NCBI RefSeq assembly: GCF_040546685.1
Contig: NZ_JBEPOH010000002.1
Coordinates: forward strand, 1-64,000
Source: Variovorax sp. OAS795
GTDB lineage: Bacteria > Pseudomonadota > Gammaproteobacteria > Burkholderiales > Burkholderiaceae_C
Direction of reading: 5' to 3'
Length of the DNA stretch: 64,000 nucleotides
Position numbers and translations under genes: made by a program. This document shows positions 37,767 through 46,992 of this stretch, in pieces (the stretch's first letter is position 1; every line of letters begins with the position of its first letter). The notes under the pieces are model-generated. The model saw only the letters and a program-made list of their open reading frames with translations. It was not told where the DNA came from and searched no databases.

Positions 37767-38282
37767 ATGAAGCTCGATCATTGGGTGTGGCTGCCGGTGG
37801 CCGCGATCTCCACGTCGGTCTACGCGACGACGTATTTCAGCACCGAGGAAGCGCAGCAGGCGATCTTTCCCGGCGAGAAGCTCACGCCGGCGTTCTTCAC
37901 GCTGAGCGACGCGCAGGCAAGGAAGATCGAGGACACCACCGACGTCAACGTGCGCCACAAGGACATCAAGGCCTGGAAGGCCAGCGGCGGCGGATGGTTC
38001 ATCCTCGACGAAGTGGTGGGCAAGCACGAGTTCATCACCTATGCCGTGGGTCTCCATGCCGACGGCAGCGTGAAGCAGATCGAGATCGTCGACTACCGCG
38101 AGTCCTACGGCTACGAGGTCCGCAACCCCGACTGGCGCAGGCAGTTCATCGGCAAGACCGCCGCGGCCCCTCTCAAGCTGGAGCAGGACATCCACAACAT
38201 CAGCGGCGCCACGCTCTCGGCCAGGCACGTGACCGACGGCGTCAAGCGCGTGCTTGCCACGTATGCCATCGCCTTCAAGTAG
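37767..38282 (+). CDS. FMN-binding-domain protein, exported
   Basis: A 171-residue protein with an N-terminal signal or anchor (MKLDHWVWLPVAAISTSVYA) and a C-terminal FMN_bind domain. The flavin attachment motif is HNISGATLSA near residues 142-151: the Thr that would carry FMN through a phosphoester is present, but the Asp usually three residues before the Ser is His. The gene for ApbE, which attaches FMN to such threonines, follows immediately and overlaps by 20 bases. Likely an extracytoplasmic one-electron carrier. Confidence 0.88.
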   Translation: MKLDHWVWLPVAAISTSVYATTYFSTEEAQQAIFPGEKLTPAFFTLSDAQARKIEDTTDVNVRHKDIKAWKASGGGWFILDEVVGKHEFITYAVGLHADGSVKQIEIVDYRESYGYEVRNPDWRRQFIGKTAAAPLKLEQDIHNISGATLSARHVTDGVKRVLATYAIAFK

Positions 38283-39168
38283 CCTGCGCCGCGCGCGGCC
38301 GCTGCTCGGGACGCTGGTCGAAATCTCCGCGGCGGGCGGCCCGGCCGGCCTGCAGGCGGCGCTCGATGCGGCCTTCGCGTCCATCGAAACGATCGACCGG
38401 CTGATGAGTTTCCATGCGCCCGCGAGCGATGTTTCCAGGATCAATGCGGCCGGCGCCGACTGCGAGGTCTGCGTCGATCCGCAGACCTTCCGCGTGCTGC
38501 AGTTCGCGCGCGAACTGGGCGAAATCTCGGGCGGCGCGTTCGACATCACGATCGCCGATGTACTGATGCGCGGTGGCTTGCTGCCCCGGCATGCAGCCTT
38601 GGGGCTCTCCAATGCCGCGGCAGCAGACTTTCAGGACTTGGTGCTGCGGCCCGGCGACCGCGTGCGCTGGCGCCGCAAAGGATGGATCGACCTGGGCGGC
38701 ATCGCCAAGGGGTATGCCGTCGATTGCGCCATCGGCGCGCTGCGCGCCCATGGCGTGGCCAGCGGCGTCGTCAACGCGGGCGGCGACCTGCGCTTCTTCG
38801 GCGAGCCGCAGCCGGTTGATGTGCGCCACCCCGATGCGCCAGGCGCGCGCGTGCGGCTCGGCGTCTTCCGCGATGGCGCCGTGGCCACGTCCAGCGGCTA
38901 TTTCTCGGACCGGACAGGGACAGCCGAGGGCAGCGCGGCGGAGCCGCTGGTCGATCCGGTGCGCCGCGCGTGTGTGCGCTGGCGGCAAAGCGTCACGGTG
39001 GTGGCGGCCGACGGCATGACGGCCGACGCGCTGACCAAGGTCGTGCGGCTCGCACCGGAAGGCGCGCCGCGCATCCTCGAGCGCTTCGGCGCGCAGGCGA
39101 TCGTGATCGACGGCCGCGGGGTGCGCCGATGCGGGAGCGCCATGCCGACGGCGGCGGCTGCCGCATGA
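38263..39168 (+). CDS. apbE: FAD:protein FMN transferase ApbE
   Basis: A 301-residue ApbE: it transfers FMN from FAD to a Thr in target proteins. Seen: RARPLLGTLVEISA, IDRLMSFHAPASDVSRIN, WIDLGGIAKGYAVD, SGVVNAGGDLRFFG, SSGYFSD and ADGMTADALTKV, all diagnostic. ATG 38263 starts inside the FMN-binding gene. No obvious signal peptide is seen, so the transfer may occur before export of its target, or the N-terminus is atypical. Its natural substrate is surely the neighbouring FMN-binding protein (inference). Confidence 0.94.
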   Translation: MPSPSSSLRRARPLLGTLVEISAAGGPAGLQAALDAAFASIETIDRLMSFHAPASDVSRINAAGADCEVCVDPQTFRVLQFARELGEISGGAFDITIADVLMRGGLLPRHAALGLSNAAAADFQDLVLRPGDRVRWRRKGWIDLGGIAKGYAVDCAIGALRAHGVASGVVNAGGDLRFFGEPQPVDVRHPDAPGARVRLGVFRDGAVATSSGYFSDRTGTAEGSAAEPLVDPVRRACVRWRQSVTVVAADGMTADALTKVVRLAPEGAPRILERFGAQAIVIDGRGVRRCGSAMPTAAAAA

Positions 39169-39626
39169 GGCCGCATCTTCACCACGCCGGGCCACAGCCC
39201 GTCCGGCTGGGCCGCAGGCACCAGCACTGGGTCTACGGCATGGCCGGGCTGCTGTTGCTCTCGGGCGCGGGCTGGCTGGTCGCCCACTACCTCCTGGCCG
39301 TGCCGACCGGGTTCGGCGACCTGCACCAGGCGTCGGAGCCCTGGTGGCTGCGCCTGCACGGCGCGGCGGCCATGGGCTTCCTCGTGATGATCGGCACGGT
39401 GCTGCTGAACCATGTCGCGCGCGCGTGGCACCTGCGCAAGAACCATCGAAGCGGGCTGGTCTTCCTCTGCCTCCTGGCCGCGCTGGTGCTGACGGGCTAC
39501 GCGCTCTACTATTTCGGCGGCGAAGAAGCGCGGCCCTGGATCAGCAAGATCCACTGGATCGCGGGGCTTGTGTCGGCCGCGGCCTTGCCGGTCCACGCGG
39601 TGCTGGGGCGCCGCCGCAACAAGTGA
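39165..39626 (+). CDS. Small His-rich membrane protein (cytochrome-b-like, DUF4405-type)
   Basis: A 153-residue protein with four hydrophobic segments (YGMAGLLLLSGAGWLVAHYL; AAAMGFLVMIGTVLL; GLVFLCLLAALVLTGYALYY; IAGLVSAAALPVHAVLG). Histidines sit at helix ends in the way of b-type heme ligands (LRLHGAAA, LLNHVARAWHL, KIHWIAG, LPVHAVL). It would pass electrons from the cytoplasmic membrane to the flavoprotein (inference). ATG 39165 overlaps the apbE stop by four bases; an in-frame ATG at 39129 is less likely. Confidence 0.83.
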   Translation: MRPHLHHAGPQPVRLGRRHQHWVYGMAGLLLLSGAGWLVAHYLLAVPTGFGDLHQASEPWWLRLHGAAAMGFLVMIGTVLLNHVARAWHLRKNHRSGLVFLCLLAALVLTGYALYYFGGEEARPWISKIHWIAGLVSAAALPVHAVLGRRRNK

Positions 39627-42014: not shown

Positions 42015-42280
42015 GCGTGGGTCCCTCCTCTTGACGATCTTCGCCTGGCGCCAGCATACGGCGAAAGTAGTAATGACACATCACCTTTTTTAGCGATCCG
42101 GATGGCCCGGGGCGCGGCAGCACCCGGTTCCACCGCGGCAGATGGGTAACCAGGGGCAGTGTGAAGCGCGGCCCGATTCGTATGAAATTCTCGCGCTGCC
42201 GTCCGACAAACCGCCAGCCGGCGGCCTCCGTATTCAAGCTGGGTCTCTTCCACAACCAGCTCCTACCGAGGGTGACAGCA

Positions 42281-43765
42281 ATGAATTTCATTCGAATTCC
42301 CCTGCATGCCTGCGTTCTCGCGGCATGCGCGATGACCGCACCCGGCGCTTTCGCCTCCAGCCACCGCGAGGCGCCCTCGATTGCCGGCATGCCGAAGGTG
42401 GACGCCACCGATTTCTACATGTTCCGCAGCTACGAGCCGGGCCGGCAAGACTACGTCACGCTCATCGCCAACTACCAGCCCGACCAGAGCCCGTACGGCG
42501 GCCCGAACTACTTCGCGATGGACCCCAACGCGCTCTACGAGATCCACCTGGACACCGACGGCGATGCGGTCGAGAACATCACCTTCCAGTTCCGCTTCAA
42601 GAACACGCTGCGCGACATCCAGCTGCCGATCGCGGGCAAGCAGGTCTCCATTCCGCTCGTGCAGGCCGGCGGTATCACGGGCCCGAACCAGGCCACCAGC
42701 AACCTGCGCGAGACCTTCACGCTGAATATCGTGCGCGGCGACCGCCGCACCGGCGCCAGCGAGGCCATCGCCGCAGCCGGCGGCAGCAGGGAATTCGACA
42801 AGCCGACCGACAACATCGGCGACAAGACCTTCGGCGGGCCTGCCGGCTATGCCGCCTATGCGGCCCAGCATCTGTACAACGTCAACATCCCGGGCTGCGC
42901 GGCGCCAGGCCGCGTGTTCGTGGGGCAGCGCAAGGATCCGTTCAGCGTGGCACTTGGCCAGGTGTTCGATCTGATCAACCTGAACCCGCTCGGCGCGGCG
43001 AACGGCAACCCCGACGCACTGGCCGGCAAGAACGTCACCACCATGGCGCTCGAAGTGCCCATCGCTTGCGTCACCACGGCTGGCAAGCCGATCATCGGCG
43101 GCTGGACCACCGCGAGCGTGCGCCAGGGCCAACTGGTCGCCAGCCCGCCCAAGCGCGGCCATGGCACCACCGTGCTGGCCGGAGGTGCCTGGGCGCAGGT
43201 CTCGCGGCTGGGAATGCCGCTGGTCAACGAGGTGGTCATCGGCCTGAAGGACAAGGACCGCTTCAACAGCTCCAGGCCGAAGGACGACGGCCAGTTCATC
43301 GACTACGTGACCCACCCGACGCTGCCCGCGCTCGTGCAGACGCTGTTCCCCTCGGCGCCGGCACCGACGAACTTTCCGCGCACCGACCTCGTGGCCGCGT
43401 TCCTGACCGGCGTCGAAGGCGTCAACAAGCCCGCGAACGTGACCGCCTCGGAAATGCTGCGGCTGAACACCAGCACGGCGCCGACACCCAAGGCCGGCCA
43501 GAACAACCTGGGCGTGCTGGGCGGCGATTCAGCGGGCTTCCCGAACGGCCGTCGCCCAGGTGACGACGTGGTCGATGCCGAACTGCGCGTGGCCATGGGC
43601 GTGCTGTGCGTGGCCACCGGCGACAAAGACGCGCTCAAGGTCGGCTGCAAGCCGTCCGATGCGCCGGCCGGCTCCGCGGCGATCACCGACGGCGCCATGC
43701 AGAGCGCGGCGCAGTTCCCGGACACCTTTCCGTACCTGAACACGCCGCTGCCAGGTGCGCAGTAA
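42281..43765 (+). CDS. DUF4331-family exported protein
   Basis: A 494-residue exported protein: signal peptide MNFIRIPLHACVLAACAMTA with cleavage near GAFASSHREAPS, and the DUF4331 opening SHREAPSIAGMPKVDATDFYMF. Later motifs include LFSAP-like LFPSAPAPTNFPRTDLVAAF and GVEGVNKP. The frame stays open upstream, but ATG 42281 starts a clean signal peptide. Function of DUF4331 is unknown. It heads a cluster with a small lipoprotein, a repeat protein and a HupE/UreJ membrane protein, and is probably periplasmic or at the cell surface. Confidence 0.92.
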   Translation: MNFIRIPLHACVLAACAMTAPGAFASSHREAPSIAGMPKVDATDFYMFRSYEPGRQDYVTLIANYQPDQSPYGGPNYFAMDPNALYEIHLDTDGDAVENITFQFRFKNTLRDIQLPIAGKQVSIPLVQAGGITGPNQATSNLRETFTLNIVRGDRRTGASEAIAAAGGSREFDKPTDNIGDKTFGGPAGYAAYAAQHLYNVNIPGCAAPGRVFVGQRKDPFSVALGQVFDLINLNPLGAANGNPDALAGKNVTTMALEVPIACVTTAGKPIIGGWTTASVRQGQLVASPPKRGHGTTVLAGGAWAQVSRLGMPLVNEVVIGLKDKDRFNSSRPKDDGQFIDYVTHPTLPALVQTLFPSAPAPTNFPRTDLVAAFLTGVEGVNKPANVTASEMLRLNTSTAPTPKAGQNNLGVLGGDSAGFPNGRRPGDDVVDAELRVAMGVLCVATGDKDALKVGCKPSDAPAGSAAITDGAMQSAAQFPDTFPYLNTPLPGAQ

Positions 43766-43775
43766 GGAGAACGCC

Positions 43776-44075
43776 ATGAACATCACGTTCCATCGCATCG
43801 CCGGCCCGCTCCTGGTCGCCGCCACGCTCGCCGGCTGCGGCGGGGGTGGAGGGGGGGGCGGGGGCTTCAGCTTCCATCCGTTTCCACCCGCCGGAGGGGG
43901 CCAGCAGCCGCCGCCGACGGCGCCCCCGCCGCAAGCGGATGCCTACGACACGTTCATTGCCTACGTGAAGACGCTGGTGGACGGCGGTGGGCTCGACACG
44001 GCCGAAGCCGTCGACGTGGCGACCTTCGATCCGCCGCCGGGCTCCGAGACCAAGGACCCCATTTCCACCGAGTGA
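43776..44075 (+). CDS. Small lipoprotein with polyglycine stretch
   Basis: A 99-residue protein: signal peptide MNITFHRIAGPLLVAAT with lipobox LAGC, followed by about nine consecutive glycines, a proline-rich spacer (PPPTAPPPQ) and a short acidic, conserved-looking end (AYDTFIAYVKTLVDGGGLDT). The glycine stretch is encoded by G-runs at 43842-43864. It lies 10 bp after the DUF4331 gene and its stop overlaps the next start (TGATG). Role unknown; probably an accessory of the DUF4331/HupE cluster. Confidence 0.82.
   Translation: MNITFHRIAGPLLVAATLAGCGGGGGGGGGFSFHPFPPAGGGQQPPPTAPPPQADAYDTFIAYVKTLVDGGGLDTAEAVDVATFDPPPGSETKDPISTE
43842..43864 (+). repeat. G-rich tract with an 8-G homopolymer inside the lipoprotein gene
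   Basis: Runs of five, two, eight and five G separated by single other bases. The 8-G run (43851-43858) is long enough to slip in replication and shift the lipoprotein frame. The whole tract also satisfies the usual G-quadruplex pattern, the long run counting twice. Confidence 0.7.
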
Positions 44076-45268
44076 TGACCGTGCGCCGACGCCTGCCGCC
44101 CCCGTCCGCACTGCGTGCAGGTGCCGCCGCCCTGGCCATGGCCGGGGCGATGGCGTGGGCCGGCGCCGCGCCGCGCGTTCCCACCGACGACAACGAGGTC
44201 GTCGAATCGTTGCCGTCGGTGGCCGATTGGTCGCGCGAGGCACGCGCGATGCGCCGGGAACTGCAGCAACGGCCGACCGACGCGGCCGTGGCCATCGGGG
44301 CGGCCACCCGCTACCTCGAGCTTGCGAGATCGCAGGGCGACGCGCGCTACGCCGGCCATGCCATGGGCGCCCTTTCCCACTGGGCCGCCGCAGCACCCGG
44401 CGATACGCCCCCACCCGTGCTGGTGATGCGCGCCGGCATTGCGCAGTTCCTGCACGATTTCGACGGTGCACAGGCGCTCCTGAAGGCCGCGCTCGCACGA
44501 CAGCCGTCCAATGCACAGGCCTGGATCACGCTGGCCACTGTCCTGCGGGTACGCGGCCGCTACGGCGAATCGGACGCTGCCTGCCACGCGCTCGGCCGTG
44601 TCGGGCCGGCGCTCTACGGGCTGGCCTGCATCGCGGAGAACGCCGGCTTGCGCGGCAACCACGACGAAGCGCGCGGCACTTTCAAAGAACTGCTGCAAGA
44701 CCCCCGGCTCCAGGCCCGGGAGCAGGCCGGCACGCGCCAATGGCTGCTGACCAGCCTGGCCGAGACCGAGGAACTCGCGGGCCGCCCGGCCGAGGCCGAG
44801 GACGCGTATCGCCGCGCCTTGCAGGCCGAGCGCTCGGGCTATCTGCTGCTTGCCTACAGCGACTATCTTCAGCGCGCCGGGAGGCCGGAGGAGATTCCCG
44901 CATTGCTTCGGAACGAAGCGCGCAGCGACGCGGTGCTGCTTCGCCTGGCCATTGCCTCGCGCGGCCTCGAGGGCCCGCGCACCGACGCGGCCGAACTCAG
45001 GGCGCGCTTCGGGGCGGCGGCGGAGCGGCCGGGCACCACCGCGGTCCATGCGCGCGAAGAGGCGATGTTCGCGCTCGACGTCGATGGCAACGCCCGGCGT
45101 GCGCTCGAGCTCGCCAGGCTCAACGTCCAGCTGCAGCGCGAACCCGTCGACCTGCTGCTGTTCGCACGCGCGGCCGTTGCGGCGAAGGACGAGCCGGCGC
45201 GCGCCGAAGTCGGGGCGCTGGTGCGGCAGATCGGCCTTCGCGACGCGCGCGTCGATGCGCTGCTCTGA
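44075..45268 (+). CDS. Exported tetratricopeptide-like repeat protein
   Basis: A 397-residue protein: signal peptide ending around AGAAPRVP, then TPR-like helical hairpins (DGAQALLKAALARQPSNAQAW, RPAEAEDAYRRALQAER, NARRALELARLNVQLQREPV). It would be a periplasmic scaffold or adaptor. Start ATG 44075 shares a base with the lipoprotein stop. It is 10 bp upstream of the HupE/UreJ gene; this order (DUF4331, lipoprotein, TPR, HupE) looks like one transcription unit. Confidence 0.88.
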   Translation: MTVRRRLPPPSALRAGAAALAMAGAMAWAGAAPRVPTDDNEVVESLPSVADWSREARAMRRELQQRPTDAAVAIGAATRYLELARSQGDARYAGHAMGALSHWAAAAPGDTPPPVLVMRAGIAQFLHDFDGAQALLKAALARQPSNAQAWITLATVLRVRGRYGESDAACHALGRVGPALYGLACIAENAGLRGNHDEARGTFKELLQDPRLQAREQAGTRQWLLTSLAETEELAGRPAEAEDAYRRALQAERSGYLLLAYSDYLQRAGRPEEIPALLRNEARSDAVLLRLAIASRGLEGPRTDAAELRARFGAAAERPGTTAVHAREEAMFALDVDGNARRALELARLNVQLQREPVDLLLFARAAVAAKDEPARAEVGALVRQIGLRDARVDALL

Positions 45269-45278
45269 GCGCCGCGCC

Positions 45279-46430
45279 ATGACCTTGCACCACCGTCGCC
45301 CGCTGCTGGCTGCGCTGTTCTTCTGGATGCTCGCCTTGCTCATGCTTCCGGCGCATGCGCACAAGGCCAGCGACGCCTATCTCCAGTTCTCGCGCGACGG
45401 CGACCGGATCGACCTGCGCTGGGACATCGCGCTGCGCGACCTCGATGCGGTGCTGGACCTCGACGCCAACGCCGACCAGAAACTTTCCTGGGGCGAGGTG
45501 CGCACCCGCCTGGATGACATCAAGGCCTATGCGCTGGGCCGCCTGCGCCTGCAGGGCGGCCGATGCGTACCCGCCGAAACCCAGGCGCCCGCCATCGAGA
45601 ACCGCATCGACGGCGCCTACCTGGTGCTGCAGATGCGGGCGCCGTGCAGCGCGGCCGATGCGCTGTCGATCGACTACCGCCTGTTCCAGGAAGTGGACCC
45701 GACGCACCGTGGCCTGCTGCGCGCCGAAGCCAAGGGCGCGGCCGCGCCGGTGCTGCGCTCGCTGGACCCCTCGGCCGGGCCCGTCTCCATCGACTGGGCG
45801 GGCGCCCAGGGTGCGGCGCCACCCCCCAGCTTCTTCGCCGATGGCATCCACCACATCCTGATCGGCTACGACCACATCCTGTTCCTGGTCTGCCTGCTGC
45901 TGCCCGCCGTGCTCCGGCGCAGGGATGGCGGCTGGACGCCCGTGCGCGCATGGAGGGACGCCGCCTGGCCCATGCTCGGCATCGTGACGATGTTCACCAT
46001 CGCGCACTCGATCACGCTGGCGCTCGCGGGATCGAAGATCGTGACGATCTCGTCGCACATCATCGAGCCCGCCATCGCGGCCACCATCATCGTGGCGGCG
46101 CTGGACAACATCCGGCCCGTGCTGCGCGGACGCCGCAAGCTTTTCAGCTTCCTGTTCGGGCTCATCCATGGCTTCGGCTTTGCGGGCGCTCTGGGCGAAC
46201 TCGAATTGCCGACGCGGCAGTTCGTGCTCGCGCTGCTTCAATTCAACCTGGGGGTGGAGGCCGGCCAGCTGGCCGTGGTGGCGGTGGTGCTCACGGTGCT
46301 GCTGGCGCTGCGCAGCTGGCGGCGCTATCCGCCGCTGGTGCTGCACGGCGGCTCGATGGCCGCGGTGGTCCTCGCCACGGTGTGGCTGTGCGAACGCGTG
46401 CTGGACGTGAAGGTGCTGCCGTTCTCCTGA
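45279..46430 (+). CDS. HupE/UreJ-type membrane protein with periplasmic EF-hand-like loop
   Basis: A 383-residue protein. Signal peptide to about AHAHKAS; periplasmic domain about 30-175 carrying a perfect 12-residue EF-hand loop, D62-A-N64-A-D66-Q-K-L-S70-W-G-E73; then about six or seven membrane helices from residue 190. The helical part has HHILIGYDHILFL, GIVTMFTIAHSITLALA and LFGLIHGFGFAGALGEL, with His/Asp pairs suitable for binding a transition metal. HupE/UreJ relatives move nickel or cobalt; the metal here is unproven. Confidence 0.92.
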   Translation: MTLHHRRPLLAALFFWMLALLMLPAHAHKASDAYLQFSRDGDRIDLRWDIALRDLDAVLDLDANADQKLSWGEVRTRLDDIKAYALGRLRLQGGRCVPAETQAPAIENRIDGAYLVLQMRAPCSAADALSIDYRLFQEVDPTHRGLLRAEAKGAAAPVLRSLDPSAGPVSIDWAGAQGAAPPPSFFADGIHHILIGYDHILFLVCLLLPAVLRRRDGGWTPVRAWRDAAWPMLGIVTMFTIAHSITLALAGSKIVTISSHIIEPAIAATIIVAALDNIRPVLRGRRKLFSFLFGLIHGFGFAGALGELELPTRQFVLALLQFNLGVEAGQLAVVAVVLTVLLALRSWRRYPPLVLHGGSMAAVVLATVWLCERVLDVKVLPFS

Positions 46431-46509
46431 GAAGAGAAAAAAGACGGGATGGGAAGCTGCGCGGTGAATCCGGTGGGCGGCAGGCTGCGTACTTGTGGGC
46501 AGACCGCCG

Positions 46510-46992
46510 ATGAACCGCTTCACCATTTCCCTCGATGAGCAACTCGCGCGCCAGTTCGAGATGCTCATCGCCCAGAAACGCTACACGAGCCGTTCCGAGG
46601 CCGTGCGCGACCTCATCCGCTACGGGCTCGGCCGCGCCGGACTCCGGGGCATGCAGTTCGATGCCGTGGTCTCGTCGTGCATCGCCAGCGTCAGCTATGT
46701 GTACGACACCCGCGAAGGCGCACTGGTGACGCGGCTGCAGGCGCTGCGGCATGCACACCACGGCATGGTGACCGCGTGCAACCAGACGCCGCTGGACCTA
46801 GGCAGTTGCCTGGAGTGCGTGGTACTGCGCGGTTCGATTGCCGCCGTTCACGACGTGGCCGACCAGCTGATGTCCATGCGCGGCGTTCGCCACGGCCAGG
46901 CGAACGTGGTGGCGCTGACGGACGGCGCGGCCATGCCCGCCCACGCGCATCCGCCGGTACCCACGCACTCGCACCTCACACCTTTGAACTGA
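46510..46992 (+). CDS. NikR-like ribbon-helix-helix regulator with altered metal site
   Basis: A 160-residue regulator: ribbon-helix-helix DNA-binding part RFTISLDEQLARQFEMLI, KRYTSRSEAVRDLIRYGL, then an ACT-type domain. Compared with E. coli NikR from memory, the high-affinity Ni ligands H76 (RHAHHG) and C95 (SCLECVV) are kept, but H87 and H89 are replaced by Gln and Pro (ACNQTPLDLG). New cysteines appear nearby (TACN, LEC), and the C-terminus is His-rich (HAHPPVPTHSH). It may sense another metal or a different state. It lies 79 bp after the HupE/UreJ gene on the same strand. Confidence 0.9.
   Translation: MNRFTISLDEQLARQFEMLIAQKRYTSRSEAVRDLIRYGLGRAGLRGMQFDAVVSSCIASVSYVYDTREGALVTRLQALRHAHHGMVTACNQTPLDLGSCLECVVLRGSIAAVHDVADQLMSMRGVRHGQANVVALTDGAAMPAHAHPPVPTHSHLTPLN

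Follow-up and report, generated by a model that had tools for sequence, protein, structure and literature searches.

A conserved DUF4331-lipoprotein-TPR-HupE gene module with a candidate role in envelope metal handling, from a Variovorax genome

Introduction

What does a protein of the DUF4331 family (PF14224) do when its gene lies in one row with that of a metal permease? The question is raised by a 64,000-nucleotide stretch of DNA from Variovorax sp. OAS795 (contig NZ_JBEPOH010000002.1, positions 1 to 64,000; hereafter the window), in which four genes are packed together on the plus strand: those of an exported DUF4331 protein, a small lipoprotein, an exported tetratricopeptide repeat (TPR) protein and a HupE/UreJ-2 permease. 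A gene for a NikR-type regulator follows. DUF4331 has no assigned function, yet at least 7998 homologues were scored in the homologue search made here. An earlier sequence-only reading had taken the five genes for a metal-handling system.

The four genes from DUF4331 to HupE are a conserved module, clustered far beyond chance, and this module likely handles metal in the cell envelope. On balance it is probable that it binds a metal of the Cu(II)/Ni(II) type outside the cytoplasm and passes it to the inner-membrane permease. This reading draws on the conservation of the module, the modelled anglerase fold of the permease, predicted N-termini and the co-occurrence of a regulator with an operator-like site.

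A conserved four-gene module

The DUF4331 gene (42281-43765, +) encodes an exported protein of 494 aa that matches PF14224 with 492.5 bits (cut-off 27) over positions 1-421 of the 421-position profile. As read from the sequence, 10 bp separate it from the lipoprotein gene (43776-44075, +), whose product has the lipobox LAGC, a Gly/Pro-rich linker, acidic C-terminal motifs and no Pfam match. The gene for the TPR protein (44072-45268, or from an ATG at 44075, +) overlaps it by four bases or one, depending on the start that is chosen, and its TPR_14 and TPR_17 matches are barely above their cut-offs. After another 10 bp comes the HupE_UreJ_2 permease gene (45279-46430, +; PF13795, 161.7 bits against a cut-off of 24.5) and, 79 bp further on, the NikR-type gene (46510-46992, +). 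The gene content between 42281 and 46430, the tight packing and the same-strand regulator gene downstream all agree with the sequence-only reading, and so does the conserved linkage of the four envelope genes, as the following neighbourhood analysis shows.

A family draw of 150 genomes contains 54 full-length DUF4331 places, a count that leaves out the partial or divergent rows G128:C2, G146, G091:C194 and G028:C12. At 40 of the 54, a strong HupE_UreJ_2 match lies within 6 kb on the same strand, as judged from the 88 best HupE rows (all from E 4.2e-9 on were left out). The distance is 1.9-2.4 kb downstream of DUF4331 in 38 of these 40, which is room for a lipoprotein gene and a TPR gene. Counted anywhere in the genome, a strong HupE_UreJ_2 match is present in 47/49 genomes with a full-length DUF4331 vs. 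18/101 of the others; the Fisher test on the family draw takes no account of kinship between genomes.

A phylum draw of 397 genomes includes 25 with any DUF4331 match. The 17 loci read from it are all the full-length DUF4331 places except those of the window genome and of G082, in which DUF4331 and TPR-HupE are located separately. TPR and HupE genes stand beside DUF4331 in 14 of the 17, all of them in the window's own class. Neither gene is found near DUF4331 within the stretch read of L117, and L125 and L126, which are full-length and lie outside the window's class, have DUF4198 in place of TPR and HupE.

A third set, the named loci, comprises the best 80 of 296 and is mostly from Burkholderiales, with Agitococcus and a Steroidobacteraceae bin; the draws overlap, and named and unnamed sets may share species. 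Among the 69 named loci with at least 4.5 kb downstream, a TPR homologue occupies its slot on the same strand in 56 and HupE is found on the same strand in 54, every HupE-bearing locus also having the TPR gene. In two loci beyond the 54, L105 and L110, HupE makes up the beginning of a longer frame. The second slot is filled by a lipoprotein in 67 of the 73 loci that have DUF4331 and HupE on one strand, compared with 117/800 random pieces taken from the named loci. Of 64 second-slot lipoproteins, 45 have two or more copies of a short acidic motif with [DE]-[PA] at its end (shuffled mean 4.3, largest 10). In L112, L119 and L124 of the phylum draw, a larger, repeat-like, Asp-rich lipoprotein is present instead of the small one.

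The alternative that the five genes share no function and lie together by chance, or as a purely local arrangement, is barely credible. The rarity of the NikR-type gene, which lies beside DUF4331 in just four of the 80 named loci, fits such a cluster, but the other four genes keep their order and spacing in distantly related genomes.

The association of DUF4331 with HupE is not universal. Of the 14 family places that have no adjacent HupE, L138 is a case where the contig ends inside a TPR homologue. A DUF4198-type match lies near DUF4331 in L131, L132 and L136 (checked with Pfam for L131 and L132), and extracytoplasmic function (ECF) sigma and anti-sigma genes in L136 and L141, with a sigma gene in L131; at the remaining places, the models recognised nothing else nearby. 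Since DUF4331 is found without a linked HupE, it can work without this permease.

The predicted N-terminus of DUF4331

The Pfam match of the window DUF4331 protein opens exactly at residue 26, the predicted mature N-terminus, which follows directly on AFA. The mature protein would thus begin with Ser1-Ser2-His3 (codons 42356-42364, +). An N-terminal X-X-H sequence chelates Cu(II) and Ni(II), and an amino-terminal Cu(II)- and Ni(II)-binding (ATCUN) motif was taken here to be a free N-terminus with His as its third residue and any residue except Pro as its second. DUF4331 probably carries an end of this type, a new prediction made from sequence.

Ala followed by SSH stands at the predicted cleavage point in 81 of 81 loci (80 named loci and the window); of the 79 loci with the exact HREAP motif, 68 have a further Ala at -3. 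The X-X-H motif is found in 116 of the 120 best DUF4331 homologues, directly after an AxA-type site in 115; the other four begin downstream of the motif. The DUF4331 protein of L127, 33% identical to that of the window, was used as the reference for a clade with A-N-H at this place. X-X-H is kept in all 120 of its best homologues (after an AxA-type site in 116), and 115 of these have A-N-H. His3 is therefore kept though positions 1 and 2 vary. SSH or ANH and the N-terminal H were part of the motifs by which the alignments A1 and A2 were chosen, and the invariance of these residues within the two alignments is by construction.

A crude cleavage predictor cuts before SSH in 56 of 71 DUF4331 proteins. 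With the same predictor, a His falls at +3 in two of 160 other exported open reading frames (ORFs), where the His counts at +1 to +6 are 5, 3, 2, 7, 0 and 1; this control was drawn from related loci and is hence not independent. Even very weak relatives of DUF4331 may have a His near the predicted N-terminus, as in L129 (SHH), L130 (SSHH), L152 (SSH) and L153 (SDH). The equally weak relatives in L128 and L155 are lipoprotein-like and have no His there, and a hidden Markov model (HMM) search found no DUF4331 in L154. Many Asp and Glu residues besides His3 are invariant in the aligned DUF4331 proteins.

The structure model of DUF4331 has a predicted local distance difference test (pLDDT) score of 77 and a predicted template modelling (pTM) score of 0.84. 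Residues 1-10 reach a pLDDT of only 53, because of which the direction of His3 cannot be read from the model. Comparison with solved folds gave no convincing match, and a sequence search against solved structures returned one chance-level row (E 0.58), and none with a profile.

The best database relatives of the window protein, at 95% identity, come from V. boronicumulans and Variovorax sp. 770b2. Members of the A-N-H clade include Methylomonas and Methylobacter by their source names (P0172, P0184, P0207, P0222 and P0233); methane oxidisers such as these have a high copper demand. Tandem pairs of DUF4331 genes occur in L132 (6903-10480) and L011.

The HupE/UreJ-2 protein as an anglerase

HupE/UreJ proteins are described as nickel permeases, and Ang-1 anglerases, published in 2025, have measured Cu/Ni binding (PMC12537917). 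By its modelled fold and its predicted N-terminal His, the window HupE protein is an Ang-1-type anglerase. Its structure model has the Ang-1 beta-sandwich before the permease domain, and the top VIA fold match is the Ang-1 structure 9GCE, with 19% identity over the aligned part. This structure was reached by fold alone: a sequence search against solved structures found none, and a profile search gave six weak rows at E 0.046 or worse (Hsc70-interacting protein and EF-hand proteins).

The predicted signal-peptide site AHA is followed directly by HKASDAYL, which would make His1 (codon 45360-45362, +) the mature N-terminus. A His directly behind a signal-peptide-type site is present in 74 of 77 HupE HMM hits, by a pattern that also demands K, Q, E or A after the H; L054, L111 and a second, different HupE-like ORF of L060 are not caught by it. 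In 28 of 36 HupE proteins, the mature form given by the crude cleavage predictor starts with HK or HQ. In two Massilia strains (L105:13096-16236 and L110:13064-16270), HupE and a TonB receptor share one open reading frame. The 1046-aa frame of L105 has Pfam matches to HupE_UreJ_2, Plug and the TonB barrel together, and the last HupE helix could also serve the receptor as its signal peptide.

The Ang domain also contains an EF-hand-type loop, DANADQKLSWGE (45462-45497, +). Across 40 aligned relatives, the Asp that opens it (D35 of the mature protein) and the Glu that closes it (E46) do not vary, and D39 hardly does; in the structure model, the loop sits between helices at 25-32 and 44-49. The loop that had been noticed in the periplasmic part of this protein is thus a conserved feature with a modelled helix-loop-helix arrangement.

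The invariant loop ends might be read in another way, in which DUF4331, the lipoprotein and the TPR protein are elements of envelope structure, the acidic residues and the EF-hand-type loop bind calcium, the Cu/Ni link is incidental and Ser-Ser-His is kept for folding or partner binding. The numerous invariant Asp and Glu residues of DUF4331 besides His3 would suit a calcium or structural role, as would the family places that have no adjacent HupE (14/54). This is, however, a rather improbable explanation: positions 1 and 2 change without loss of His3, which some very weak relatives have as well; a second exported protein of the module begins with a predicted His and has the modelled fold of a domain with measured Cu/Ni binding; and the neighbours of the module include DUF4198, ECF-NrsF and NikR-type genes.

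Regulators and other neighbours

The NikR-type protein of the window matches NikR_C (63.9 bits) and RHH_1 (32 bits), both above the cut-offs. It exceeds the NCBIfam cut-off of NF002815 (123.7 vs. 83) and falls below that of TIGR02793 (101.5 vs. 175.45). At the NikR ligand positions, H76 and C95 are kept, and H87 and H89 are replaced by Q and P. All four nickel ligands are present in 96 of the 120 nearest homologues, the closest relatives sharing the Q/P change. The proposal of a metal-sensing NikR-type regulator therefore holds for the domains; with two of the four ligands replaced, nickel sensing cannot be assumed. The window protein and P0241-P0246 form a small subgroup with HQPC instead of HHHC and a His-rich C-terminal tail, and a NikR-type paralogue in L051 has lost the Cys as well.

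A NikR-operator-like palindrome, GTATGA-N16-TCCGAC, lies at 42180-42207 (+), 74 bp 5' of the DUF4331 start codon. It differs by two mismatches from GTATGA-N16-TCATAC, given as the operator in PMC7055735, where E. coli NikR represses nickel import. All five distinct NikR-type loci (the window, L031, L032, L051 and L053) have a site with one or two mismatches ahead of DUF4331; the 91 other loci with enough upstream sequence have none, the best there having three mismatches. It is the sole site of such quality in each of these stretches of 17-22 kb, and the chance expectation is 0.0013 per 268 bp of simulated sequence. Both half-sites are kept across four close relatives in an upstream alignment in which much of the flanking sequence differs. 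Four of the five loci are closely related, with DUF4331 94-95% identical to that of the window, and L051 (79%) is the single more distant case; L031 and L121 stand for one genome, which was counted once. Within the window, the pattern with up to three mismatches is not enriched (4 found, 5.2 expected), and 42180-42207 stands out because of the comparison between loci only.

A predicted link between regulator and operator-like site is thus well supported at the DUF4331 module of NikR-type loci. As a general component of the module, NikR was rejected, given its presence in 4/80 named loci. Its place in the proposed system stands locally and not in general.

Other loci have other regulators. ECF sigma and RskA-type anti-sigma genes lie beside the module in 12 of the 17 phylum-draw loci (Pfam check on L034 and L112), and in five Janthinobacterium loci the genes immediately ahead of DUF4331 encode an ECF sigma factor and NrsF (Pfam check on L096). 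DUF4198 is found beside DUF4331 in several loci. A TonB receptor gene lies within 7 kb of the module on the same strand in 10/80 named loci and on the opposite strand in 9/80; part of this linkage may be chance, because TonB receptor genes are common. In three Massilia genomes, a PhoD-like phosphatase gene is convergent to the module (L061:14192-15946, -, with a Pfam check; L062; L063).

The ECF sigma pairs raise the alternative of periplasmic buffering or tolerance, in which the module would sequester excess copper (or nickel) and HupE would be a sensor, exporter or scaffold instead of an importer. The NrsF/SigF pair, as found beside the five Janthinobacterium loci, serves copper stress in Caulobacter according to PMC8224329, and the RskA-type pairs of the phylum draw point the same way. 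A HupE/UreJ gene is the most up-regulated under excess nickel in Sphingobium ba1 (PMC5557971). Buffering nevertheless seems unlikely. The NikR-type regulator and its operator-like site fit uptake genes, to judge from the E. coli repressor as described in PMC7055735; HupE/UreJ proteins are described as nickel permeases; and TonB receptor genes, a feature of uptake, adjoin part of the loci.

Proposed mechanism and comparison with known systems

In the uptake reading, which we favour, the exported DUF4331 protein would present its Ser-Ser-His end after signal-peptide cleavage as a chelator of Cu(II) or Ni(II). Anchoring or docking of DUF4331 may fall to the lipoprotein and the TPR protein, and the Ang domain of the anglerase would accept the metal by its N-terminal His1 and feed the HupE permease. 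In some loci, a linked TonB receptor would add an outer-membrane entry step. The NikR-type regulator would control the operon at 42180-42207 in the Variovorax lineage; elsewhere, an ECF sigma/anti-sigma pair stands in this position. We infer the metal binding by DUF4331, the order of the hand-over and the direction of import. The complete scheme, with DUF4331 as a widespread ATCUN metalloprotein that relays metal via a lipoprotein-TPR platform to His1 of an EF-hand-bearing anglerase, in a four-part acquisition system that is here under a re-wired NikR, is put forward tentatively.

Several observations weigh against metal uptake by this route. The crude predictor puts the DUF4331 cut elsewhere in 15/71 proteins, and Foldseek places the zinc protein ZrgA just above 9GCE for the HupE protein. 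Acidic residues of the calcium type are carried by both DUF4331 and the Ang domain, and the NikR-type protein is without two of the four canonical nickel ligands. Of the 14 family DUF4331 genes that stand without an adjacent HupE, most have no metal gene nearby that the models recognise. There is no TonB receptor gene next to the module in the window, where a GntR/FCD gene follows the NikR-type gene. The original metal-system reading is supported in part, by the conserved linkage of the four envelope genes, by the permease fold and by a predicted N-terminal His of the Cu/Ni-binding kind, NikR being a local feature; the surface capture by DUF4331 and the relay order that it proposed are putative.

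The closest described system is the Ang-1-HupE/UreJ-2 anglerase (RbAng-1a, PDB 9GCE; PMC12537917), which the window HupE protein resembles in fold and N-terminal His. The two proteins are only 19% identical, and the window protein has DUF4331, lipoprotein and TPR partners. It also has the conserved EF-hand-type loop, whereas neither a term for such a loop nor calcium occurs in the main text of PMC12537917. In that paper, most Ang-1 neighbours are of unknown function and DUF4198 is named among the known ones, a secreted nickel-binding protein (PDB 9GCB) with a TonB receptor and NikR_C as neighbours. DUF4198 and DUF4331 are both exported, but belong to different families.

E. coli NikR-NikABCDE shares the NikR_C/RHH regulator and the GTATGA-N16-TCATAC-type site; it differs in that two nickel ligands are replaced here and the genes controlled would be the module and not an ABC importer. 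The Caulobacter SigF-NrsF system of the bufferins shares its ECF sigma and NrsF with the five Janthinobacterium DUF4331 loci and not with the window; its regulon is copper-induced and a sigF mutant is copper-sensitive (PMC8224329). The periplasmic zinc-binding proteins ZrgA of Vibrio cholerae and PA4063 of Pseudomonas aeruginosa have 13-16% identity to the window HupE protein, but the matched chains are soluble and have no HupE domain. Copper would be favoured by the affinity of Ang-1 and by NrsF, and nickel by DUF4198 and the origin of NikR; we choose neither.

Other features of the window and its genome

Profile searches of the window genome give one DUF4331 match, one NikR_C match and none for DUF4198. 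The gene that precedes DUF4331 in the window has no Pfam match, and scans for sigma-70 promoters and terminators found nothing that exceeds shuffled sequence. At 37767-39626, genes for an FMN-binding protein, an ApbE-type protein and a membrane protein lie in a row and may form a flavin-linked redox unit.

Novelty and significance

DUF4331/PF14224, alone or with HupE, is not mentioned in the open-access literature searched, with supplements and most subscription papers outside the search. Nor did that literature yield the four-gene module or a role for DUF4331; supplementary neighbour lists, outside the search, may name DUF4331. The accessible portions of PMC12452194, PMC9973294 and PMC10142276 contain nothing that bears directly on the module. 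The HupE/UreJ-2 anglerase, NikR and DUF4198 are known parts, and what appears to be new, as far as the literature searched goes, is the four-gene module and the proposed role for DUF4331.

The link to an anglerase, a lipoprotein and a TPR protein gives DUF4331 a testable role. His3 of DUF4331 and His1 of HupE are single-residue targets, and the pair of regulator and operator-like site could be used as a reporter. If the reading is true, Gram-negative bacteria would have a new metal acquisition system in four parts, and a further system would be joined to a type of permease that was described in 2025 and whose neighbours mostly lack a known function.

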